A stretch of DNA of 64,000 bases from Ferruginibacter sp. (GTDB taxonomy: Bacteria; Bacteroidota; Bacteroidia; Chitinophagales; Chitinophagaceae): the NCBI GenBank assembly GCA_025963635.1, contig JAOQAK010000052.1:248001-312000 (forward strand). The letters are read 5' to 3'. The notes under the pieces are model-generated. The model searched no databases, had not been told where the DNA came from, and saw nothing but the letters and a program-made list of their open reading frames with translations. Each line of letters opens with the position of its first letter. Position 1 is the first letter of the stretch. Made by a program: the position numbers and the translations under genes. Below are positions 40,848 to 54,250 of this stretch, piece by piece.

Positions 40848-41600
40848 TTAATGTCTTTTTTTAATCAAGTCTAGCACACCATTTATAAAAGTGAGGGGAT
40901 GAATTGGGTTTCCGGGAACGTACAGATCAATGATATATTTGGATAAAAAGCTCCGGTCGATTGCCGGGCCTCCTTCGAATATCCCGCCGCTGATAGCGTC
41001 TGTTCCTGCCAGTATAATGATCTTAGGTTGAGGAATCGCATCGTAGCAAATTTGTAATGGCAGGGCCATGTTTTTAGTGATCGGTCCTGTAATTACAATG
41101 CCATCCGCATGACGGGGAGAGGCAACAAAATCTATCCCGAAACGCCCCATATCAAAGTTTACATTACTACAGGCATTTAATTCCAGTTCACAACTATTAT
41201 CACCTCCTGCAGACACCTGTCGCAGTTTTAATGATCCGCCAAAATATTGATGAATTTCTTTCCGGATCAGCATCGGGTTCAGTTCTATTGGCTGGCCCTG
41301 TCCTTCGGGTATGATTAGCTGACGCCGCTCATTGGTGGCAATTTTATAATCCGTTGTAAATTTTATTTTACCTGGAAATGCAAACGCACATTCGCCGCAA
41401 AAAATACATTTCCCCAGGTCAATAGCCAATGGGCCGGATAAAATGGCATTGGTTGGACACAGATCCATCAATTCATTTTCATCGACCGGTTCATTGCTGA
41501 TGACCGGTCTGCCCCTGAAGATGCCCGGCACCTGCGCCCTCGTAATATCAGGAATATATTGTTTGCCCTGGTGAAACAGTATCTTAAGATTGTTTAACAT
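40848..41600 (-). CDS. Ferredoxin/NuoB-like small subunit of an Ehr-type complex
   Basis: A 250-residue fusion of a ferredoxin-like N-terminus with a NuoB/HycG-type domain. The NuoB-like part has FGIDFVASPRHADGIVITGPITKNMA and VPGNPIHP, clearly homologous to complex I and hydrogenase small subunits. Three of the four proximal [4Fe-4S] ligands are replaced: Asp134, Asp201 (GTD for GSC) and Asn231 (VPGN for VPGC). Only Cys137 remains. In the ferredoxin part, Cys65, Cys68 and Cys71 (CIFCGEC) plus Cys48 (CPTNAI) are kept, the set that ligates one of the two clusters of a 2[4Fe-4S] ferredoxin. The other set is absent (Phe75 replaces its Cys). Last gene of the operon. Confidence 0.82.
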   Translation of the reverse strand: MLNNLKILFHQGKQYIPDITRAQVPGIFRGRPVISNEPVDENELMDLCPTNAILSGPLAIDLGKCIFCGECAFAFPGKIKFTTDYKIATNERRQLIIPEGQGQPIELNPMLIRKEIHQYFGGSLKLRQVSAGGDNSCELELNACSNVNFDMGRFGIDFVASPRHADGIVITGPITKNMALPLQICYDAIPQPKIIILAGTDAISGGIFEGGPAIDRSFLSKYIIDLYVPGNPIHPLTFINGVLDLIKKRH

Positions 41601-41616: not shown

Positions 41617-43116
41617 TTACAGATCATGACCACAATACGACAGGTCGAAACTTTTATTACTAATGGGGAAATCAGAAATCTCATTATTACGCACTGCCAT
41701 TGCCAACGCAAGCCAGTTATGGAACGAGGGATCCTTGATTTTATAGTAAATCAATTCGCCGTTATCGCCCGTGATGGCACAATGGCAAATTTCGCCCCTC
41801 CATCCTTCAACCAAAGAAATAGTAAAAGAACCAGCCCCGGGAGAAGATAAAGAAGATCGATCATTCCTTTCAGCCGGGATTTCCTCCAATAATTTCCTGA
41901 TGTACCGGATCGATTTCCTGATCTCTTCCTTTCTGATTTGCGCTCTCGAATAAACATCCCCGTGGTGCTTGATAATGGGCTGATGATCGAATGCCCAATA
42001 TAGATCATGCGGATGGGATGACCTTATATCTCTGCTCACACCACTCATCCTTGCGCACATGCCCACGGTGCCCAATGTGGTAGCCAATTGTTGCGTGATA
42101 ACACCTGTTTTTTCAAAGCGCGCCAATGCGCTGGATAAACTGAATAATTCCTCACAGATCTCTTCAAAATCTTTTTCAAAATCATTCAATACGTTATTGA
42201 GCCCGGCCTTTAGCGCTGGAGTAAATGGGAAATTCGTTTTACCCGCTCTTATCAATCCTTTGGCCAGCCTGTTGCCACACCATGTTTGAAAGAAGTTGAT
42301 GATGGGCGTTCTTAGTCTTCCAAATACTGCACTTCCCAGTTGATAGGCTACATCGGTACACATGCCACTCAGGCCCCCGGTACAGATGGCGATTCTTTCG
42401 AGTTCCAATGCAAGTGTGCGGGACCATTGCAAATGTTTATCAGCCTGGAACCCGCATAGGCTTTCCCACAGGTTAACGAAGGCTACAGTATGTCCTGCGA
42501 CAGCATCACCGGAAATGCTTTCGGCCAGGGTTATCCGCTGAAGCAATTTTTTCTTTTCAACAAATAATGCTTCAATACCCCTGTGCTGGTAACCGAGTTG
42601 AATTTCAAGATGAAGGATTTGCTCGCCGTTACAAATAAAACGAAAATGCCCGGGTTCAATAATGCCGGCATGGATCGGGCCTACACCCACTTCATGCAAT
42701 TCTTCGCTATCAATTTTGAAGAAAGGGTAACCGGCAATAGAGCTATTTTTATCAAAGGCATTAAAGGGAAAGCGAACCGGTTTAAGCCAGGGATGATCTG
42801 CGTAGGCTATACCAAAATTTTCATGCAGTTCCCGTTCAAATTTTTCATAGGCAAGATGATGTTTGCTAAAGGAGGGTAGAACTTGTTGAGCTGTTACTAC
42901 ACAGGATGAAAGATGGATAAGGCCTAAATCATCATCCCCAATGCAACAGGTAAGCCTGATCTGCCCTGGTTGTGGAGATCCAAAATAATTTACACAGTGT
43001 GATGTATTGCTCTTCAATAAGGTGAAAACGTTTAGTTCAAAAAACGCAGGGTAATCCATTTCCGGAATAGAAGAAAGAGGAATGGTTTGATTATTTCTTA
43101 CACTTATATAGTTCAT
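41617..43116 (-). CDS. HycE/NuoCD-like large subunit lacking Ni-binding cysteines
   Basis: A 499-residue fusion of a NuoC-like domain (about 1-130) and a NuoD/hydrogenase large-subunit domain (VGVGPIHAGIIEPGHFRF, QLGYQHRGIEALF). In [NiFe] hydrogenases the nickel site uses CxxC near the N-terminus of this domain and DPCxxC at its C-terminus. Here the first motif reads ESISGDAVAGH, with Ser202 and Ala205 in place of Cys. The last residues read FDLSYCGHDL, where gap-free alignment puts Ser493 and Gly496 at the Cys positions and leaves a lone Cys495 one residue off. It cannot be a normal [NiFe] hydrogenase. It resembles the energy-converting-hydrogenase-related (Ehr) group. Confidence 0.85.
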   Translation of the reverse strand: MNYISVRNNQTIPLSSIPEMDYPAFFELNVFTLLKSNTSHCVNYFGSPQPGQIRLTCCIGDDDLGLIHLSSCVVTAQQVLPSFSKHHLAYEKFERELHENFGIAYADHPWLKPVRFPFNAFDKNSSIAGYPFFKIDSEELHEVGVGPIHAGIIEPGHFRFICNGEQILHLEIQLGYQHRGIEALFVEKKKLLQRITLAESISGDAVAGHTVAFVNLWESLCGFQADKHLQWSRTLALELERIAICTGGLSGMCTDVAYQLGSAVFGRLRTPIINFFQTWCGNRLAKGLIRAGKTNFPFTPALKAGLNNVLNDFEKDFEEICEELFSLSSALARFEKTGVITQQLATTLGTVGMCARMSGVSRDIRSSHPHDLYWAFDHQPIIKHHGDVYSRAQIRKEEIRKSIRYIRKLLEEIPAERNDRSSLSSPGAGSFTISLVEGWRGEICHCAITGDNGELIYYKIKDPSFHNWLALAMAVRNNEISDFPISNKSFDLSYCGHDL

Positions 43117-43117
43117 A

Positions 43118-44545
43118 TTAATGCGGTAAATTTATAATCGATTGCTGTATTAGTGTTACAAATTCCTGTGGCGGATTCAGTCCGAGCCAAACCACCAATC
43201 CAAGCAATACAAATTGTGATATTGATTCTGCCGGGTTTATTTTTTCAAGCGTATCCTCCTTAAAATCAACAGCCGGAGAAAATAATAATTTAAAAATATT
43301 TTTCCCAAACGCCCAAATGATCATTGTTAAAAAAAGCATTACCATTATCAATACCGCCAGGTGACCTGCTTCGAACAAAGAACGGAAAATCAAAAATTCA
43401 CTGATAAATAAACCGGATGGCGGCATGGCGGTTGCAAAAAAGAAACCAAGCAACATTACAAGGGATCCGGTTGGATTGTATTTAAAATAATTGCCCACAT
43501 CATAAATGCTTTTGCTTTTGTAAATGCGGTAGATCTGTCCCATTTGAAAAAAGAGACTTGATTTAACAAAAGCGTGTAAAATAATGTGTAACACCGCGGC
43601 ATAATACCCGATGCCACCGGCCGCCAGCCCGAGCATTACAATTCCCATATGCTCAATGCTCGAATACGCAAACATTCTTTTGATGTTTTTTACCTTGGTC
43701 ATGTAAACTGTTGCCACAAAAATGGAAAGTATGGCAGCGATCAGGATCACGTGGTTGGCCCAGGTGTGTAAAGGCGAATTTGCAATAACTGTATAGAACC
43801 GGAAAATGCCTACAAACCCAACATTCATCAAAACGCTTGAGAGCAGTGCACCGGCAGGAGAGGGGGCCTTATCTTTTGCATCAATGCCGGCTGTGTACAT
43901 TGGGACCAATCCAAGTTTTGCAGTAAACCCGGTGAAGATGAAAATGAAAGCCAGCCGAAGCCAGAATTGGTTGAGTTCGGGCGCTTTCTTTATTAAAACT
44001 GCAAAGGAAAGATCGTCTGTGCCTGCCTGGTGAAGTGTAAAACTTAAAAAGAGTATTCCGATGAATACCAGGGTAATGCTAATGGCGCAGACAAAGAGAT
44101 ATTTCCAGGTGCCTTCGAGTGAACGGTTATTCCTGCGGTGGTAAATTAACACGGATGCACTGAGTGTGGTAAGTTCCACAAAGATCCAGGTAACGGCTAT
44201 GTTATTGGCAAGATAAGCAGCGCTGATAGCGGTGAGCAGCATTACCATCGCAGCAAAATAAAAAGCGGTATGCCGGGCATTATCCTCCTTCGTTGATAAA
44301 TAAACATAGCTGTGATACATAGCAGGTATACTGATAATGCTTAGCGTAACCAGCAGCAAAATTCCCAGGGCATCTGCATTGAAGTAACGCAATTCAGTTG
44401 TGTTGATGTGCAGGTATTCATGCACTGTAAATGTGATTTGCAAAAGAAGGAAAGTCACCACCAGCAGGGTATTGATTACCCGCTTCCTGTTAAAAAATAA
44501 TAAGGCACTTATACTAAATGCACCTGCTAAATATACTCCTGTCAT
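43118..44545 (-). CDS. HyfF/NuoN-like proton-pumping membrane subunit
   Basis: A 475-residue Mrp-antiporter-type membrane protein with about 14 helices. The proton-channel motifs are kept: WIFVELTTLSASVLIYH with the conserved Glu and FTAKLGLVPMYTAGIDAKDKAPSPAGALLSSVLMNVG with the conserved Lys. It matches HyfF, the NuoN-like subunit of hydrogenase-4. It follows hyfE-like after 42 bp and its stop is 1 bp from the large-subunit start, so it is tightly co-transcribed. Confidence 0.88.
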   Translation of the reverse strand: MTGVYLAGAFSISALLFFNRKRVINTLLVVTFLLLQITFTVHEYLHINTTELRYFNADALGILLLVTLSIISIPAMYHSYVYLSTKEDNARHTAFYFAAMVMLLTAISAAYLANNIAVTWIFVELTTLSASVLIYHRRNNRSLEGTWKYLFVCAISITLVFIGILFLSFTLHQAGTDDLSFAVLIKKAPELNQFWLRLAFIFIFTGFTAKLGLVPMYTAGIDAKDKAPSPAGALLSSVLMNVGFVGIFRFYTVIANSPLHTWANHVILIAAILSIFVATVYMTKVKNIKRMFAYSSIEHMGIVMLGLAAGGIGYYAAVLHIILHAFVKSSLFFQMGQIYRIYKSKSIYDVGNYFKYNPTGSLVMLLGFFFATAMPPSGLFISEFLIFRSLFEAGHLAVLIMVMLFLTMIIWAFGKNIFKLLFSPAVDFKEDTLEKINPAESISQFVLLGLVVWLGLNPPQEFVTLIQQSIINLPH

Positions 44546-44587: not shown

Positions 44588-45217
44588 TTAATCTTTTAAA
44601 CTCTTCAATTGGTCTACATCTGCATCTTTAAGTATATCGCCAATCTTATTCACGAAAATTCCCAGCAGGAATACGCTGGCAAAAATATCGAGCAGTATGC
44701 CCATGTTTACGAGCATGGGCATTTCGTTACCCACGGCAAGCGACAAAATAAAAACACCATTTTCTATCACGAGGTAACCCATCACATGAGTTATTAGTTT
44801 ATGACGGGTTACGATAATGTATAAACCGGTAAAGAGCGTGGAAAGAGCAACGACAAAATATATCTTGCTGATGCCCGAATCATCAATGGCATTGGACAAA
44901 ATAAACATTGAGATGATAATCATTGTAATGATGATCAATGATATAAAGTTGGATAAAAACGGTTCGGCATCCCGGGTGATCCGGTTCTTTTTAATGACAT
45001 AATTGAGAAATAACGGGATGGCAATCGCTTTAAAGGCAATGGTTTCCAGCAATACAAAGGCAAGGTTAAGTGCATTGATCTGGATCAGTTCAATAAAGGC
45101 AATTCCGAAGAGTATGATGCCCTGGAACACAAGTATCTTAATATAAGTGAGCAACCGGTGTGCAATGCCCAGGTATAGCAAAGAGATGGTGAATATGATT
45201 AGTAATACATTGGTCAT
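44588..45217 (-). CDS. Hydrogenase-4 component E-like membrane protein
   Basis: A 209-residue protein with about six membrane helices and the HyfE features: an N-terminal half specific to hydrogenase-4, and a NuoK-like C-terminal half (HKLITHVMGYLVIENGVFILSLAVG with the membrane Glu). It probably joins the proton-pumping arm. Its start codon is preceded immediately by a heptameric repeat array (45221-45246), so the leader sequence has been replaced by repeat DNA and translation signals may be altered. Confidence 0.85.
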   Translation of the reverse strand: MTNVLLIIFTISLLYLGIAHRLLTYIKILVFQGIILFGIAFIELIQINALNLAFVLLETIAFKAIAIPLFLNYVIKKNRITRDAEPFLSNFISLIIITMIIISMFILSNAIDDSGISKIYFVVALSTLFTGLYIIVTRHKLITHVMGYLVIENGVFILSLAVGNEMPMLVNMGILLDIFASVFLLGIFVNKIGDILKDADVDQLKSLKD

Positions 45218-45220
45218 ATC

Positions 45221-45246
45221 GTGAATGGTGAATGGTGAATGGTGAA
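45221..45246. repeat. Heptameric array (GTGAATG, ~3.7 units), left edge of inserted element
   Basis: GTGAATG repeated three times plus GTGAA, ending 3 bp before the hyfE-like start codon (minus strand). It is the inverted counterpart of the ATTCACC array at 45657-45698. Confidence 0.8.
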
Positions 45247-45656
45247 ATATTTCAATAGCTTTTTTCTATTGCTGATTGTCTTTGAATTGTTACCTATGAT
45301 CATTTTCTGTTGTCTTTTTTTTTGTTCGTCAATGCTGTATTGTACAAGTGAGTGTCCGCCGCGGCGGATTAATTGAAAAACAATGCCTGTAAGCAAATCT
45401 TTCAAAAATAAAGAACCGTTGAAATTCTCTACTGTCTATTGAGTATTCAATGTCGTTTTGTTAAAAGAGCGATTGCCCCATCGGGACATTTGGTGGGTAG
45501 TAAATCATGAACGGATATCTCACGTTCCATCGGAACGTCTGGTGTTACCCGCATTAGCAGCATGCGTTCCCATGGAACGCTTTTCCATTCCGGTTGTTTC
45601 TACCCACCAAATGTTCCTATGACATAAAACATTTAACTATACGACATTGATGGTCT

Positions 45657-45698
45657 ATTCACCATTCACGATTACCCATTCACCATTCACCATTCACC
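45657..45698. repeat. Heptameric array (ATTCACC, 6 units), right edge of inserted element
   Basis: ATTCACC, ATTCACG, ATTACCC, ATTCACC, ATTCACC, ATTCACC, ending 3 bp from the stop codon of the NuoH-like gene. Confidence 0.85.
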
Positions 45699-45701
45699 CC
45701 C

Positions 45702-46607
45702 TTAATTCAATTGCCCCAACATCAGCAACACCCCCAAAAAGATCAACAGGGAAACGGATGATAAGGCCAGTATATATTGTGCGTTGTGATTCATCCTGAA
45801 CCTTGCCGTAAAGGATTCCAGTAAACCGATTGTTATTGCAAATAGAAATTGAGTGCAAATAAAAATGGGTATCGCAAGGTATAACGGTGCAATGCCGATA
45901 AAAAGGTTGGCAATGATTGCGCCATACATTGCGAATTTCAGGTAGCTGCCATACAAGATCATACCAAGGTCAAAGCCACTGTTATCGAGGATCATTACTT
46001 CATGTACCATCGTTAATTCGAGATGCGTATTGGGATCATCAAATGGCATGCGGCTATTTTCGACCAGGGCTATCATCACAAAAACAAAGGTTGCCAGCAC
46101 TCCCAAAATATAAGATATATAGGAACCAAAATGTAGTGAAGCGAAAATTTCATGAAAAGATGTATGACCTGTAAGCAGCGCCAATGAACCCATTAAAATA
46201 AAAAAGGCTGGCTCTGCAAACATAGAAAATAAGGCTTCGCGGCTTGCGCCCATTCCTTCAAAGCTACTGCCGGTATCCAATGCGGATATGATGCTGAAAA
46301 ATTTCCCGGCGCCTAATACATAAGCAAAGAAAACAAAATCTCCCTCAAATGATATGAATCCTTTGTACTGGCCAAAAGGAATGATGCAGATCGCCATGAT
46401 GATGGAAGCAAAATAGATACTTGGCGCTACCTGGAAGATAATGCTGGTGGTTTTGCTATACACTGCTCCTTTCTTAAACAAGCGGATTACATCTTTCATT
46501 GGTTGAAAAATTCCCGGCCCTTTTCGACCCGACGTGATGCTCTTTGTCCGGATAATGATACCTGTGAAAAACAGGCTGGCAAGGACAATTAATAAAAAGC
46601 TTAACAT
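45702..46607 (-). CDS. NuoH/HyfC-like membrane subunit
   Basis: A 301-residue membrane protein with about eight helices. GRKGPGIFQPMKDVIRLFKK, AEPAFFILMGSLAL and VENSRMPFDDPNTHLELTMVHEVMILDNSG are the signature loops of HycD/HyfC and complex I NuoH, which connect the redox arm to the proton-pumping arm. The acidic residues of the coupling loop are intact. It starts 3 bp after the stop of the second HyfB-like gene. Confidence 0.9.
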   Translation of the reverse strand: MLSFLLIVLASLFFTGIIIRTKSITSGRKGPGIFQPMKDVIRLFKKGAVYSKTTSIIFQVAPSIYFASIIMAICIIPFGQYKGFISFEGDFVFFAYVLGAGKFFSIISALDTGSSFEGMGASREALFSMFAEPAFFILMGSLALLTGHTSFHEIFASLHFGSYISYILGVLATFVFVMIALVENSRMPFDDPNTHLELTMVHEVMILDNSGFDLGMILYGSYLKFAMYGAIIANLFIGIAPLYLAIPIFICTQFLFAITIGLLESFTARFRMNHNAQYILALSSVSLLIFLGVLLMLGQLN

Positions 46608-46610
46608 TTT

Positions 46611-48638
46611 TTAAAGTGTATTTAAAAAATTAATCAATGATGTAAGATATTCGAATACAAATGGAATCACCAGCACAAGACTTATAAATACTACGCCATA
46701 CAAGATGTAGAACTGGAGATTTCCGTTTTGCAAAAACGTAAAACCGTTAAAAAACTTTTTTAAAAAATTAATTGGATAATCTATCAGCCAGGCCTCGGCT
46801 TTATCGTATGGATGTGTTACTTGTCCGCCGGTTGTTGGGAATATACCTTTTATTTCTTTTTTCTTTTTGCTGATTGAAAAAAGCGGTTCAGCAAGTTTCC
46901 GGTATGCCCGGGTAAAAGAGCTGGCGGTATATTGCATTTTAGCCGTGGGTGCGATGTAACCACAATTCCATGTTGCGTCAATGTCCATGTGTTTACCAAG
47001 TGTGATTCGCTTCCTGGCGAAATAGATTAACCCAGTCAGCAGCAGGAAGATCAATGCATACAATCCAATAGCCGGGATCGCCTCCATAGCTGGTAAAGTT
47101 GATGCCTGTGTGGAAAAAACAATACGGCCGGTGAACAGTGCCAGTGGCCTGGAAAGTACGCTGATGAAAGTTTTCGGGAACAGACCAATGGCCATAATCA
47201 GCATCACTATTGCATACATCGGTATTAATTTCCCGAGGCCGGCCTCTTCCAGCTCATAGTGAAAATTATAGCGCGGTTGTCCCAGGAAAACGGATCCGAA
47301 TGCTTTTGTAAAGCAAAGCATGGCAAGTCCGCCGATCAGCGATAACCCAAATAATCCTAAAACGATAAAGGATAGCAATGTTTTATCGGAACCATTTAAC
47401 CCGGTAAACAGGCTATTATAGATTAGGAACTCTGAAACAAAACCATTGAAGGGTGGCAATCCGCAAATGGCAAGCGCAGCAATAAGAAACAGCAGGGAAG
47501 TATGGGGCATTCGTTTACCGAGTCCACCCAGTTTTTCTATATCCATTGTGTGGGTTGACTGGTACACATTACCCGCTCCATAAAATAATAGTGATTTAAA
47601 AAGAGAATGATTTAAGGTATGCAACAAGGCGCCGGCAAAACCCAGCACCGTTAAAATATAATTTGCCTTTCCTATTCCAATACAGCCAAGGCCAATGCCG
47701 ATGCCGATGATGCCGATGTTTTCGATGCTATGATAGGCAAGCAATCGCTTTAGATTGTGCTGTAGAATGGCAAGCATCACTCCATAAACGCCCGAAATAA
47801 TAGAAATCAATAAAATCAAATACCCGATTAACCCGTAATCGCACCGGATTAGCAGTAACATTCGCAGGATGCCGTAAATACCGATCTTGATTATTACTCC
47901 CGACATAATGCCTGATACATGTGATGGCGCAGCGGGGTGCGCATAAGGTAACCAGGTATGAAAAGGCACGAACCCTGCTTTGATCGCAAATCCTATAAAA
48001 AAACAAATAAATAAAGCAACGCCGGTAAGCAAAGAATTGTTTGCAGAGAACAACTGTATGGCTTTAAAATCATAAGCGTTCATGCGCATTGCAACCCATA
48101 AAAAACCGAGGGTTAAAAACATAATGCAGATATGCGACTGGATTAAAAAGTTTATCCCGGCCCTCAATGTTTCTTTTTTATGATGTTCAAAAATTACCAG
48201 TATAAAAGAAGATAAAGCCATGATTTCCCAGGCAATAAGAAAGGCCATAGAATTTTGAATGCAACAAATGCTTAACAGGCTTGATTGTAATAACACAAAG
48301 CAAATACAATGGAGACCAAGGCTGGTCTTTTGTGCGCTGTAGGCCTTCATATATTGCAGGCCGTATACTGCGCCGGTGATAACAGTAAAATTGATAATCA
48401 AAATAAACCAGCCCGATAATGCATCAATCCTGATGGGAATGATCCCGGTTACCAATGAACCCTTGAATAAATATTCATAATTTTCCCCTGCCAGTGCCTG
48501 TGCGGCTATGATGCTGCTGAGTATAGCTACTATGCTCACCGCAGCCATCGTAATAATTCCTTTCCACTGCACATTTACAAACGGAAGCACCAGCAAAACC
48601 GGGAGGATAATTAATATGATTGCTGTAATTATTGTCAT
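46611..48638 (-). CDS. HyfB/NuoL-like antiporter subunit, copy 2
   Basis: A 675-residue membrane protein with about 16 helices. AFLIAWEIMALSSFILVIFEH holds the proton-channel Glu, and FAIKAGFVPFHTWLPYAHPAAPSHVSGIMSGVIIKIGIYG holds the conserved Lys residues and loop. The C-terminus has the HyfB-type WNCGYIAPTAKMQYTASSF segment. It is a close paralogue of the preceding gene and overlaps its stop by one base (TGATG), so the two are translationally coupled. Confidence 0.9.
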   Translation of the reverse strand: MTIITAIILIILPVLLVLPFVNVQWKGIITMAAVSIVAILSSIIAAQALAGENYEYLFKGSLVTGIIPIRIDALSGWFILIINFTVITGAVYGLQYMKAYSAQKTSLGLHCICFVLLQSSLLSICCIQNSMAFLIAWEIMALSSFILVIFEHHKKETLRAGINFLIQSHICIMFLTLGFLWVAMRMNAYDFKAIQLFSANNSLLTGVALFICFFIGFAIKAGFVPFHTWLPYAHPAAPSHVSGIMSGVIIKIGIYGILRMLLLIRCDYGLIGYLILLISIISGVYGVMLAILQHNLKRLLAYHSIENIGIIGIGIGLGCIGIGKANYILTVLGFAGALLHTLNHSLFKSLLFYGAGNVYQSTHTMDIEKLGGLGKRMPHTSLLFLIAALAICGLPPFNGFVSEFLIYNSLFTGLNGSDKTLLSFIVLGLFGLSLIGGLAMLCFTKAFGSVFLGQPRYNFHYELEEAGLGKLIPMYAIVMLIMAIGLFPKTFISVLSRPLALFTGRIVFSTQASTLPAMEAIPAIGLYALIFLLLTGLIYFARKRITLGKHMDIDATWNCGYIAPTAKMQYTASSFTRAYRKLAEPLFSISKKKKEIKGIFPTTGGQVTHPYDKAEAWLIDYPINFLKKFFNGFTFLQNGNLQFYILYGVVFISLVLVIPFVFEYLTSLINFLNTL

Positions 48639-50641
48639 CAGATAAACTTAAAGATGGTTCCTAAAAACACAATGACAATAAAGAAAATGCCATACAAAAT
48701 ATAAGTTTGAATCTTACCGTTCTGTATAAACTTGAAGTAGTTCATTGAGAAAAGTAGCCGGTCCACAATTGTGTTAAATATTTTTATTACAAACAGGTCT
48801 TTGTAATGCGAGGAATGCTTTCGTTTCACGGGGAAAATGTCATCACCCGCAATCTCTCTATATTTCTTTTTTTCCAGCACAATGAAATTAAATAGTTTTC
48901 CCAGTGACTTGGAAAAGGATTTACCGGTATATTGTATTCTTGCCGTTGGCGCAATGTAACCACAGCCCCAGGTGGGCCCCGTCACGATGTTTCGTTGAAG
49001 GGAAACCCGTTTTCTTATATAAAAAATTAACGTCATCAACAACAGGAAGACGATGGAGAATTGTCCGGTGGCAGCTATGCTGTTAAGAAATGAATTCGGT
49101 ATCGGCAGGGTTGCGAGAGAAGTTGCCGGAACAAGACTAAGAACAATTTGATGTGCTATTGAAAAATAAAACTGTGGAAACAAGCCAATAGACAACATTA
49201 CCACTAAAATAAAATACTGGGGAAGCAGCATACTCCGTTTCACTTCAACAGGTAGCTGGTGTAAATGGGTTCGTGGCTGGCCAAGAAATATCGTTCCAAA
49301 ACATTTTGTAAAAGCGAGCATAGATACTCCGCCAACCAGTGCCAGGCCTGCAAATGAAAAGATCATCAGGGTAGTTTGCGCAATAGGACCGGAGCCATTA
49401 ATCCCCAGAAGGATGCCGCTATATATTACAAATTCCGAAACAAAGCCGTTAAAGGGTGGCAGGCCCCCGATCGCCAAAGCGCCCACTAAAAAAAGGATGG
49501 CGGTTTTCGGCATGGTATGGATCAATCCGCCCAACTTTTCCATATCACGCGTATGCGTTTGCTGGTAAACTGAGCCTGCGGAAAAGAACAGGAGCGATTT
49601 AAAGAGCGAATGATTCAAAGTATGCAACAAGGCCCCTGTAAATCCTAATATAGTCATCAGCGAATTTGCTCTTCCGATCCCGATCAATCCGATGCCAATA
49701 CCAATGCCAATAATGCCGATGTTTTCAATGGTGCAATAGGCAAGCATTTTCTTGAAATCACGATGAACAGCCGCGTTAAGAATGCCAAACACACCTGTAA
49801 GAACAGAAAGGATGATGATGATTTCACCGATAATAGTGTAATCCTGTCTTAATAAAAATACCACCCGCAATATCCCATAAATACCCAGTTTAACAATCAC
49901 TCCCGACATTACTCCTGAGATGTGTGAAGGCGCCGCCGGGTGAGCCTGGGGGAGCCAGGAATGTAAAGGAATAAATCCCGCCTTGATTCCAAACCCAACA
50001 AAAAATATAATAAACAACCAAAGATTTTGATGGTGAGAAAAGAACGTTCCAATTGCAGGAAATTCGAGCGAACCTTCGGAAAAATACACCCAGATAAATG
50101 CAGCTACCAGGAAGAGAACGCCGATGTGCATTTGAACAAAATAATTAATCCCCGCAGTCAGGGTCGTTTTGTTTTTGTGGTCGAAGATGACGAGCAGGAA
50201 AGAAGAAATAGACATCAGTTCCCAAACGATCAAAAAAGCCAGTCCGTTCTGCATCATGCAAACCCACAACATAGAGGACTGAAATAGCAGGAATAAGATC
50301 CAGTGCATCGAAAGATTTGCCTTTTGCTCATCATAGGGTTTCATATACCCGATGCCGTACAATGCTCCGTTAATACAAGTAAGATTAATGATGAGCATGA
50401 ACCAGGCAGATAAAGAATCTATATGAATTGAAACGGTTCCAAACAATGCAGCATGGGAAATAATGATATCCGGCACATTGCCGGTTAATGCTTTTATAGC
50501 CGGAACAGAAGTTATTACAGCTACCAGTATTACAAAAATTAAATGAGCCTTTGCACGGGTGAAATGTGGCAGGAATGGAATGGATATCATTCCGGCCAGC
50601 AGTATCAGGAGGGATAAGGAAAGTAAAATCGAATCGCTCAT
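48638..50641 (-). CDS. HyfB/NuoL-like antiporter subunit, copy 1
   Basis: A 667-residue paralogue of the next gene, with the same elements: WELMSISSFLLVIFDHK (Glu), FGIKAGFIPLHSWLPQAHPAAPSHISGVMSGVIVKLGIYG (Lys), HTLNHSLFKSLLFF and the C-terminal TWGCGYIAPTARIQYTGKSF. First gene of the seven-gene operon. E. coli hydrogenase-4 carries HyfB and HyfD. Here both slots are filled by HyfB-length proteins. Together with the HyfF-like subunit the complex would have three antiporter modules, as in complex I. Confidence 0.9.
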   Translation of the reverse strand: MSDSILLSLSLLILLAGMISIPFLPHFTRAKAHLIFVILVAVITSVPAIKALTGNVPDIIISHAALFGTVSIHIDSLSAWFMLIINLTCINGALYGIGYMKPYDEQKANLSMHWILFLLFQSSMLWVCMMQNGLAFLIVWELMSISSFLLVIFDHKNKTTLTAGINYFVQMHIGVLFLVAAFIWVYFSEGSLEFPAIGTFFSHHQNLWLFIIFFVGFGIKAGFIPLHSWLPQAHPAAPSHISGVMSGVIVKLGIYGILRVVFLLRQDYTIIGEIIIILSVLTGVFGILNAAVHRDFKKMLAYCTIENIGIIGIGIGIGLIGIGRANSLMTILGFTGALLHTLNHSLFKSLLFFSAGSVYQQTHTRDMEKLGGLIHTMPKTAILFLVGALAIGGLPPFNGFVSEFVIYSGILLGINGSGPIAQTTLMIFSFAGLALVGGVSMLAFTKCFGTIFLGQPRTHLHQLPVEVKRSMLLPQYFILVVMLSIGLFPQFYFSIAHQIVLSLVPATSLATLPIPNSFLNSIAATGQFSIVFLLLMTLIFYIRKRVSLQRNIVTGPTWGCGYIAPTARIQYTGKSFSKSLGKLFNFIVLEKKKYREIAGDDIFPVKRKHSSHYKDLFVIKIFNTIVDRLLFSMNYFKFIQNGKIQTYILYGIFFIVIVFLGTIFKFI

Positions 50642-51207: not shown

Positions 51208-51813
51208 TTATATTTTAATCCAAAATTTTAAGAGGTCATTCAGGTCTGTGCCTACAACATGGTAATCTGCCGGCACAACTGTTTCGCTGCTATGATAGGT
51301 TACCAGCTTTGTGCCCGCCGGCTTTTGGCCGAGCAGCCGGTGCAGGAACCGGTTGTAATACTTATACAGTTCGTCTGAATATTCAATACTGTCGTCGATT
51401 TTTTTTGCGCCCGGCAGGTTTTCATTAAACGAATTATAAAAATAAAAATGATCATAGGCCATGAAATCCAGCCGGGTAAAATTTGCGTGGATGAATGAAA
51501 GATTTTTCAATTGAAGTGTATTATTTGCGGCCATGGCATGAGCGACCAGGTACTCTCTTTGCTCTACTCCATAAAAAAAAGATGCCGGTTTATAAAAAGC
51601 CGCTGGCAGGCAAAACTTTCCCACGCCGCTTCCTATATCCAAAACGGTTGAATTGTCGTCTGCAGCTAAAAAATCAGCGATTTTTTTTACAATGCCTAAG
51701 GGTGTCCAGTGCCCCAAACCCAGGGCCCGAATGGATTGTGGGTAAAGTTGGTTCAGCTGATCGTCTGAATCAAACCATCCTTCTGTATGCTTTATTGTTT
51801 CTTCCGGGGTCAT
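51208..51813 (-). CDS. Class I SAM-dependent methyltransferase, paralogue 1
   Basis: A 201-residue soluble methyltransferase. Motif I is VLDIGSGVGKFCLPAA, followed by YGVEQREYLV (acidic end of strand 2) and DHFYFYNSFNEN (strand 4 region). The motif I sequence resembles that of DOT1-like and related small methyltransferases, but the substrate is unknown. It is a clear paralogue of the gene at 53639-54250: same length, same YPxSxxxLxxxHWTPLxxVKK block, same LKFWIKI C-terminus. It lies between the GcvH-like gene and the 96-residue protein on the same strand. Confidence 0.82.
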   Translation of the reverse strand: MTPEETIKHTEGWFDSDDQLNQLYPQSIRALGLGHWTPLGIVKKIADFLAADDNSTVLDIGSGVGKFCLPAAFYKPASFFYGVEQREYLVAHAMAANNTLQLKNLSFIHANFTRLDFMAYDHFYFYNSFNENLPGAKKIDDSIEYSDELYKYYNRFLHRLLGQKPAGTKLVTYHSSETVVPADYHVVGTDLNDLLKFWIKI

Positions 51814-51929: not shown

Positions 51930-52322
51930 TTAGTGAGCGTTCGTGTGGTATTGCTGGGACTGCAATAATCCTATTCGCTCATAAGGTTGTGAGGGTAATA
52001 CCAGGGCAATCCAACCTTTGTTTTCGGGGTGATGCAGTAACATGTGCTTGTCGCCTGTCAATAATTTTTTATTCACTTTTAAAACCTTGCCATCCACCGG
52101 CATATGCGCTTCAATTGTGTAATCGCGATACTGTATGGTTGCAATTACTTCACCCTGTTTTCTGAAACCCAATGGCTCAGTAAAAGTGATGGCATCTATT
52201 TCTTTAAAGCCCAGGAGTTTGAAATTACAGATGCCGGTATAGGCGAGAATACCCTGGAAGTCAATCCACTCATGATCATGAGTGAAATAAAGATCTTTGT
52301 TGGTTGATTTTTCCATGTTCAT
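51930..52322 (-). CDS. GcvH-like protein without the lipoyl lysine
   Basis: A 130-residue protein aligned along its length with glycine cleavage H protein: LYFTHDHEWIDFQG, AYTGICNFKLLG, GEVIATIQYRDYTIEAHMPVDGKVLKVN. In true H proteins the hairpin carries lipoyl-lysine (for example IEVVKTVSDLFMPVSG). Here Asp67 occupies that place and the flanking residues differ too. It cannot be lipoylated at the usual site and no other gcv gene is nearby. It may be a structural or regulatory biotinyl-lipoyl-fold protein. It is divergent from the Crp/Fnr gene and heads the minus-strand block leading toward the Ehr-type operon. Confidence 0.75.
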   Translation of the reverse strand: MNMEKSTNKDLYFTHDHEWIDFQGILAYTGICNFKLLGFKEIDAITFTEPLGFRKQGEVIATIQYRDYTIEAHMPVDGKVLKVNKKLLTGDKHMLLHHPENKGWIALVLPSQPYERIGLLQSQQYHTNAH

Positions 52323-52404: not shown

Positions 52405-52412
52405 TAATTTTG
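52405..52412 (+). promoter_or_regulatory. Candidate -7 box for the Crp/Fnr gene
   Basis: TAATTTTG fits TAnnTTTG and ends 6 bp before the ATG at 52419, implying a very short or absent 5' leader. Confidence 0.4.
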
Positions 52413-52418
52413 ACGCAG

Positions 52419-53120
52419 ATGAGCATAAAAGGTATTTTTCCAATAGATAACTGGGATTTCAAAAGCGAGTCCATCCTGGCGGATTTACCTTCTGAAGATT
52501 TGCAACTGCTTACCGCTCACAAATCAGAGCAGATGTATAAAAAAGGGGAGATCATATTCAGGGAAGGAGCTTACCCTGGCGGCATCTTTTATATTTCCGC
52601 TGGAAAAGTAAAAAAATACAAACTCGATAACGAAGGAAGGGAGCATATCATTTATGTGGCCAACACTGGCGAGATATTTGGTTATCATGCTATTCTGTCG
52701 GAAGACCGTTACCCGGATTCCGCCGCTGCCCTCGAGGAAAGCCGCATCGCGTTTATCCCCAGGGAAGATTTTTTGGAAACACTTCACCAATCGGAAATAT
52801 TAAGCAGGCATTTACTAAAAACACTGAGCCATGAGTTTGCGGTTTTAACCAACAGCCTATCAATGTTCGCTCAAAAATCAGTACGGGAGCGGTTAGCATT
52901 ACAACTTATAGTGCTTCGGGAAAAATACAAGGTAAATTTTAAGCCGGGTATGCCCGTCGAAATAAACATGAGCCGCGATGATTTGGCCAGCCTGGTAGGT
53001 ACTGCGAGAGAAAATGTAGTGCGGGTATTAACAGAGTTCAAGGAGGCTGACATCCTCGAAACCAAGGGGCGGAAGATTATTGTGCACGATGTAAACAAAC
53101 TGATCCAAATCGCCAAATAG
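52419..53120 (+). CDS. Crp/Fnr family transcription regulator
   Basis: A 233-residue regulator, started at the ATG at 52419 (MSIKGIFPIDNW). An in-frame TTG 9 bp upstream lies within the likely -7 box. The N-terminal cyclic-nucleotide-binding-type beta-roll spans about 20-140 (KKGEIIFREGAYPGGIFYISAGKVKKYK, GEIFGYHAILSEDRYPDSAAALEES). The C-terminal winged helix is of the HTH_Crp type (INMSRDDLASLVGTARENVVRVLTEFKE). There are no cysteines, so it does not sense oxygen with an FNR-type cluster. It is the only regulator near the Ehr-type genes and is divergent from the GcvH-like gene. Confidence 0.9.
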   Translation: MSIKGIFPIDNWDFKSESILADLPSEDLQLLTAHKSEQMYKKGEIIFREGAYPGGIFYISAGKVKKYKLDNEGREHIIYVANTGEIFGYHAILSEDRYPDSAAALEESRIAFIPREDFLETLHQSEILSRHLLKTLSHEFAVLTNSLSMFAQKSVRERLALQLIVLREKYKVNFKPGMPVEINMSRDDLASLVGTARENVVRVLTEFKEADILETKGRKIIVHDVNKLIQIAK

Positions 53121-53638: not shown

Positions 53639-54250
53639 TTAAATTTTTATCCAGAATTTTAAATGGCTATCCATTTCCGACCCTACTGTGAGGAAATTTT
53701 CCGGTATTTCGTCTTCGCAGCTAAAGTATGTGGCCAGCCGGGTACCCGTAGGTTTTTGTGCTAATTGCTTCAAAAGGTGATGGGTGTAAAACTGGTATAG
53801 TTCATGCGAGTGCTGAACACTTGTGTCGATTTTTTCGGTAAAACCAAAATTTTCGTAAAATGAATTGAAAAAGTAAAAATGATCATAATCATCAAAATTC
53901 AGTTGGGTAAAATTGCCATGAATAAACTCAATGTTCCCAAAATCTAAATTCGTTCTTGTGTTTTCCGCATACTCCACAAGCGCCTCCCGCTGTTCGATAC
54001 CGGTATAAAAAGCTTCGGGCATAAAATGTGCAGCGCCCAGGCAGAATTTGCCCACCCCGCTGCCGATATCCAATATTCTCGCATTCTTTTCAGCGGCAAG
54101 AAACTCCGCCGCTTTCTTCACCACTTCCAAAGGTGTCCAATGGTCCCTGGCCAGGCTTTGCATGGATGCGGGGTATAATAAATGAAACCTTTCGTCTGAG
54201 TTAAACCATTTATCAATATGGGGATTAGCAGTAGTACCTGCAGATAGCAT
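53639..54250 (-). CDS. Class I SAM-dependent methyltransferase, paralogue 2
   Basis: A 203-residue methyltransferase closely related to the one at 51208-51813. Motif I is ILDIGSGVGKFCLGAA, then TGIEQREALVEYA and DHFYFFNSFYENFG, ending LKFWIKI. Substrate unknown. A CAAAGGTA element at 54420-54427 (TACCTTTG on the minus strand) is a possible -7 promoter box about 170 bp before the start. Confidence 0.82.
   Translation of the reverse strand: MLSAGTTANPHIDKWFNSDERFHLLYPASMQSLARDHWTPLEVVKKAAEFLAAEKNARILDIGSGVGKFCLGAAHFMPEAFYTGIEQREALVEYAENTRTNLDFGNIEFIHGNFTQLNFDDYDHFYFFNSFYENFGFTEKIDTSVQHSHELYQFYTHHLLKQLAQKPTGTRLATYFSCEDEIPENFLTVGSEMDSHLKFWIKI

Follow-up and report, generated by a model that had tools for sequence, protein, structure and literature searches.

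An Ehr-like seven-gene operon of Ferruginibacter whose small subunit retains the ligands of one ferredoxin cluster

Described relatives and the operon

How reduction near N2, the proximal cluster of complex I, drives pumping in the distant membrane arm is a long-standing question. Complex I (Nuo) shares NuoB-, NuoC-, NuoD-, NuoH-, NuoI- and L/M-like parts with the complex described here, although the present operon has neither the NADH module nor the N2 ligands (two adjacent Cys plus Cys plus Cys). A closer likeness is to the Ehr complexes, reportedly defined in a 2013 paper by Marreiros. Like Ehr, the operon has a group-4-like gene content with antiporter-like subunits, and its large subunit has no NiFe ligands (PMC6349859 and PMC7304191, accessible parts), but in its small subunit the ligands of the proximal cluster and one of the two ferredoxin sets are missing as well. 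This likeness is drawn from operon content and NiFe ligand absence. In the accessible portions of the literature, mostly outside subscription papers, we found no Ehr small subunit described as lacking its proximal ligands.

In the membrane-bound sulfane reductase (MBS) of Pyrococcus the NiFe ligands are lost and the proximal cluster is altered, as in the present complex, but the proximal cluster of MBS, held by three cysteines, serves as its catalyst and both ferredoxin clusters are present, whereas the proximal and distal sets are both absent here (PMC7684303, partial text). The same partial text describes, for MBH and MBS, three clusters leading to a chamber at the membrane-arm interface, with conserved loops carrying the coupling. 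In FHL the inter-cluster steps are <14 Å, and in aerobic preparations the weak parts are the NiFe site and the proximal cluster (PMC9474812, partial text). FHL and hydrogenase-4 (Hyc, Hyf) share HyfB-, HyfE- and HyfF-type membrane subunits with this operon, in which, however, NiFe motifs and proximal ligands are missing and the small subunit is fused to its ferredoxin. Finally, DAB2/MpsAB shows that a NuoL-like subunit can drive chemistry other than redox reactions (PMC13144422, accessible part), but no DabA-like gene is among the seven genes of the operon and anion transport is hinted at solely by sporadic SulP genes.

The window (the whole stretch of Ferruginibacter sp. DNA that was analysed, 64,000 nucleotides) carries a seven-gene operon that begins at 50641 and ends at 40848, in the order B1, B2, C, E, F, L, S, with S last (Table 1). 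Among solved structures, FHL subunits are the best or nearly the best matches to S, L, B2 and C. The gene order recurs in most relatives on contigs of enough length, and in certain relatives a single HyfB-like gene stands in place of two. Residues E141, K220, K251, H340 and K348 of B1 (50 rows), E138, K220, K251, H340 and K348 of B2 (59 rows), and E124, K210 and K328 of the F subunit (72 rows) are conserved in 100% of the aligned rows, and supposed ion-path Glu/Lys/His residues are conserved in C as well (50 to 72 rows across B1, B2, F and C). We take these conserved residues of the antiporter-like subunits to line the ion path; judged by them, the membrane arm seems to be whole and would be expected to translocate ions. 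In five loci of relatives (L054, L059, L071, L076 and L078) L is not adjacent to S. S as a free-standing protein was considered and rejected for these loci, a split operon or incomplete assembly being likelier, since L turned up elsewhere for L054, L059 and L078 and C for L071, though neither did for L076.

Table 1. Features of the operon and its surroundings in the window
Feature	Position	Strand	Basis
S: fused one-cluster ferredoxin and NuoB-like small subunit without N2 ligands	40848..41600	-	Pfam, alignment
L: large subunit, NuoC/D-like (related to HycE/MbhL), lacking the NiFe CxxC motifs	41617..43116	-	
F: HyfF-like antiporter-type membrane subunit	43118..44545	-	
E: HyfE-like membrane subunit	44588..45217	-	
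Non-coding insert between C and E	45218-45701		
C: NuoH/HycD-like membrane anchor subunit	45702..46607	-	
B2: HyfB-like antiporter-type subunit	46611..48638	-	
B1: second HyfB-like antiporter-type subunit	48638..50641	-	
SAM methyltransferase	51208-51813	-	
GcvH-like protein	51930-52322	-	PF01597, E 4.5e-9
Crp-like regulator	52410-53120	+	
SAM methyltransferase, paralogue of the above	53639-54250	-	

The best solved relatives of the large subunit are HycE and MbhL. The NiFe CxxC motif was found in none of 88 rows at the N-terminal place and in none of 89 at the C-terminal place, the window included, and no HypD was found in the window's genome. A hydrogenase is thus ruled out by the missing NiFe cysteine motifs of L and the missing HypD of the genome. 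The proximal [4Fe-4S] ligands of a group 4 [NiFe]-hydrogenase are not present either, S having Asp/Cys/Asp/Asn at these places. HypD is present in 9 of 34 complex-bearing genomes and is rarer in those without the N2 ligands (1/18) than in those that keep them (8/16; Fisher p 0.006, kinship not corrected). The window's genome has two other NuoB-type places, and the one read retains its cysteines.

Ligands of the small subunit and their loss

The S gene is an ORF of 250 amino acids with an ATG start and no internal stops, in which Pfam places Fer4 at residues 60-73 and Oxidored_q6 (NuoB-type) at 136-244. The original prediction, made from the sequence of the window, was that Asp134, Cys137, Asp201 and Asn231 occupy the NuoB-type ligand places and that only one ferredoxin ligand set, Cys48/65/68/71, is left. 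Alignment with MbhJ (6cfw_J) and HycG (7z0s_G) bears out the former, the four proximal-cluster cysteines falling on just these residues. The latter holds as well: S has seven cysteines (48, 65, 68, 71, 137, 144 and 185), its ferredoxin part is devoid of cysteines 1-3 of the first motif, and Phe75 stands at the place of the fourth cysteine of motif 2, so that the second set is absent. Following the rule for 2[4Fe-4S] ferredoxins and NuoI, we take Cys65/68/71 together with Cys48 to be the ligands of one cluster, presumably the medial one (N6b), nearest the NuoB domain, the distal one being N6a. On this assignment, the distal ligand set appears to be gone from S and the medial set kept. An AlphaFold2 model of S has a mean pLDDT of 87, with 93-96 for residues 31-100 and only 60-65 for residues 131-150 (the former N2 loop, with Asp134 and Cys137), and a Foldseek search with it matched FHL subunit 7 (HycG), MbhJ and NuoB-type chains. 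The spacing of the proximal positions in S (3/64/30) is similar to that of C25/C28/C93/C123 in MbsJ (3/65/30; PMC7684303, partial text).

No relative in the conservation set varies at Cys48, Cys65, Cys68 or Cys71, each of which is present in 112 of 112 usable rows (106 different sequences), while the remaining cysteines vary (Cys137 in 91, Cys144 in 65 and Cys185 in 93 of 112). The relatives were found with six seed patterns, one of which was KCIFCGEC, so that some rows were selected for three of the four cysteines; 34 rows from whole-protein genome searches (33 different places, partly the same genes as the named loci) also retain all four. Of the 221 relatives from the pattern search the best 80 were kept, and weaker ones therefore lie outside the count. 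Left out of the 112 rows were L049 because of gaps, L064 because its match was split in two, L080 as a fragment, L001 (the window itself) and L002 and L003 (ordinary NuoB places); an earlier alignment of 83 rows, before exclusions, had Cys48 in 81, the exceptions being L064 and L080. In seven close pairs, dN/dS of S was 0.012-0.072. Strict retention of the four cysteines together with such strong purifying selection argues for function and not decay, as had been proposed from the one sequence.

Four ligand states occur among the 112 rows: one ferredoxin set with N2 absent (91 rows, the window included), two ferredoxin sets with N2 (13), two ferredoxin sets without N2 (4: L069, L070, L074 and L083), and N2 without a full distal set (4: L104, L107, L110 and L113). 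The medial ligand set is lost in none of the 112, and 22 of the 91 main rows have residual cysteines near the distal positions, at most two each. Because some relatives have N2 with one cluster and others two clusters without N2, the two losses are separable; the predicted selective retention of one cluster thus stands as far as the four cysteines are concerned, but not as a single event. In a careful tree of S, the 91 main rows form one group (97/86), as do the 95 N2-less rows (100/97), and L104, L107 and L110 are placed apart (100/95). This tree, which includes the cluster columns, would have N2 lost once and the distal set about three times. Its weight is reduced by these columns, as the other trees give different counts: a quick S tree with them masked, in which 26 of 103 branches are well supported, has two changes for N2 and five for the distal set. 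A quick tree built on an independent gene, L, has two changes for the main group and again puts L104, L107 and L110 together. The four states are certain, but the number and order of the losses are not; the distal cluster nevertheless appears to have been lost more than once.

Evolution apparently did away step by step with N2, with NiFe or quinone chemistry and with one of the ferredoxin clusters, leaving the pump and one cluster site under strong selection. Since living bacteria carry the intermediate states, the parts of the coupling could be tested by comparing natural enzymes. The real interest of the complex lies in the survival of these intermediates with the pump kept, which offers a natural test of the link between electron flow and ion pumping.

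The residues that took the place of N2 are regular. Between 15 N2-keeping and 95 N2-less rows of S, the fixed differences are C134D, C201D, C231N and C44L, the last of which sits in the distal motif; in L (10 vs 74 rows) they are R40H, L97I, H163N, Y168L and R286K. The deepest rows, L113 and L114, retain the proximal set and were left out of the N2-keeping rows in this comparison. Of the 91 main rows, 89 have Asp134, 88 Asp201, 89 Asn231 and all 91 His234, and the corresponding numbers for the four 8-Cys N2-less rows are 4, 2, 2 and 4. As His234 is found in 14 of 17 N2-keeping rows, it must be older than the loss of N2. The near-fixed Asp/Asp/Asn would hardly arise from random loss, which suggests a new role for the old N2 pocket; emptied of its cluster, it may be a proton site, a metal site or a polar core. 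In the pattern list, 94 of the 95 N2-less rows have at most one cysteine at the proximal places and none has the three that hold the proximal cluster of MBS. Oxygen damage is a possible driver of the N2 loss.

Possible roles of the retained cluster

We tentatively favour a seven-subunit, Ehr-like ion-translocating complex, related to group 4 membrane-bound hydrogenases and complex I but without a NiFe site, in which electrons reach the medial cluster only and this cluster probably acts as a redox switch. Provided that the cluster assembles, a soluble carrier would deliver electrons to the medial cluster of S alone, and its redox state would serve as a switch or input acting through the S-L-C interface on the antiporter-like subunits. 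No wire would lead from it onward to a quinone or NiFe chamber: with N2 lost the wire to the chamber would be broken, leaving the medial cluster as the sole electron-accepting centre. A more specific form is possible but doubtful: a single medial [4Fe-4S] cluster would gate or power a complete ion-translocating arm, no electrons would pass to a catalytic chamber, and the former N2 site would have become an Asp/Asp/Asn(/His) site for a proton or a metal. A redox path ending at the medial cluster fits the ligands, and the sequences would also suit a structural cluster or a pocket with a new cofactor; we rank a redox switch or input first, a site relocated to the emptied pocket second and a structural cluster third. 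Against a switch, no partner electron carrier was found, the medial cluster by itself may lie too far off the membrane chamber to have an effect once N2 is lost, the loop with Asp134 and Cys137 has low model confidence, and the SulP neighbours hint at a role that is not obviously redox-linked. The active site could instead have moved one step back, the old N2 pocket (Asp134, Asp201, Asn231 and His234) binding a new metal, or a substrate, to which the medial cluster passes its electrons directly, so that the pump would still be redox-driven. These residues are too regular for random loss, the short inter-cluster steps of FHL (PMC9474812, partial text) would put a ligand at the old N2 place within reach, and in MBS the proximal cluster itself turned catalyst (PMC7684303, partial text). 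However, His234 predates the change, positions 201 and 231 vary in the four 8-Cys N2-less rows, and the pocket loop is modelled with low confidence, and we consider such a site rather unlikely. Somewhat less likely still is a purely structural cluster in a redox-free ion translocator (a Mrp-like antiporter or a gradient-driven machine) with the soluble arm as scaffold. The intact membrane arm beside lost N2 and NiFe ligands, the non-redox chemistry driven by NuoL-like subunits in DAB2 (PMC13144422, partial text) and the SulP genes near some loci would all suit it, but a purely structural [4Fe-4S] would be costly in lineages that include aerobes, and all four cysteines are invariant where the others vary.

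In 10 of 89 loci the retrieved sequence contains a full-length SulP gene. These genes lie directly after S in L061, L073, L082 and L103, one ORF further in L059, four ORFs off on the other strand in L054 and upstream in L105, L106 and L108, and in L114, an N2-keeping locus, a SulP-STAS-PTS EIIA fusion gene (L114:6921-9137) stands between L and S. By identity they form three groups: L054/L059/L061/L073/L082/L103 (38-76%), L105/L108 (86%, with L106 outside the comparison) and L114 (24-34% to the others). Nine loci (L104-L112) also have a gene of HTH plus PTS EIIA type immediately upstream of the operon. Such neighbours could point to a gradient-driven inorganic-anion (bicarbonate or sulfate) system with SulP, similar in function to DAB/MpsAB or the cyanobacterial CO2-uptake NDH-1. 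We regard this as improbable, since 79 of the 89 loci are without full-length SulP and since SulP, near 5 of 11 N2-keeping and 5 of 76 N2-less loci (two loci unclassed, no chance background computed), does not track the window's ligand state. A search with the L061 SulP, moreover, gave matches in 2 of 19 genomes that have the complex and in 20 of 23 that do not (kinship not corrected), which argues against an obligate link. SulP as an obligate partner is thus contradicted by both the loci and the genomes, and an anion role of the complex is a lead and not a result. Decay or an assembly artefact could be read from the patchy distribution of the operon and from three rows that are broken or fragmentary, but the operon is conserved and the same ligand state recurs in isolate genomes; given the conserved cysteines and the low dN/dS, we reject decay as scarcely credible.

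Distribution and neighbouring genes

The contig scan returned 221 relatives, and nearly all labels among the best 80 are Bacteroidota. L014 and L038 are unplaced taxonomically, and the labels of L028 (Marinimicrobia) and L083 (Bifidobacterium breve) are probably those of misbinned MAG contigs. The operon is patchy in Bacteroidota: the complex was found in 3 of 147 genomes of a family sample (E<=1e-20), 17 of 395 of a phylum sample (1e-18) and 16 of 395 of a class sample (1e-25), the window's own genome included in each. The window's ligand state also occurs in the isolates Niastella vici, Flavihumibacter profundi and Breznakibacter xylanolyticus.

A Pfam tally of 207 flanking ORFs (103 + 104 of 258), which left out SulP, HTH-EIIA, very long and some short ORFs and covered the first 25 of 144 and 116 families, revealed no general operon partner. 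Recurring among the families listed are methyltransferases (6 members), DUF1275 (4) and Crp-like proteins (3). Beside the window's operon lie two paralogous SAM methyltransferase genes and one for a Crp-like regulator, and methyltransferase homologues occur near the operon, in varied arrangement, in seven loci (L007, L008, L010, L011, L012, L015 and L020). A DUF1275 membrane protein gene adjoins the operon in four (L011:588-1376, L016:10833-11576, L023:344-1159 and L025:10878-11621). The GcvH-like protein, which has a homologue in L007, presumably carries Asp at the place of the lipoylated Lys, judging by a hand alignment with the lipoyl motif. Between C and E, the window has a 484-base non-coding insert whose arms are inverted and of (GTGAATG)n type; parts of it recur at dozens of other sites in the genome (of the 68 matches listed, its own is the sole one over the full length), and in L008 the C and E ORFs lie ~10 bases apart.
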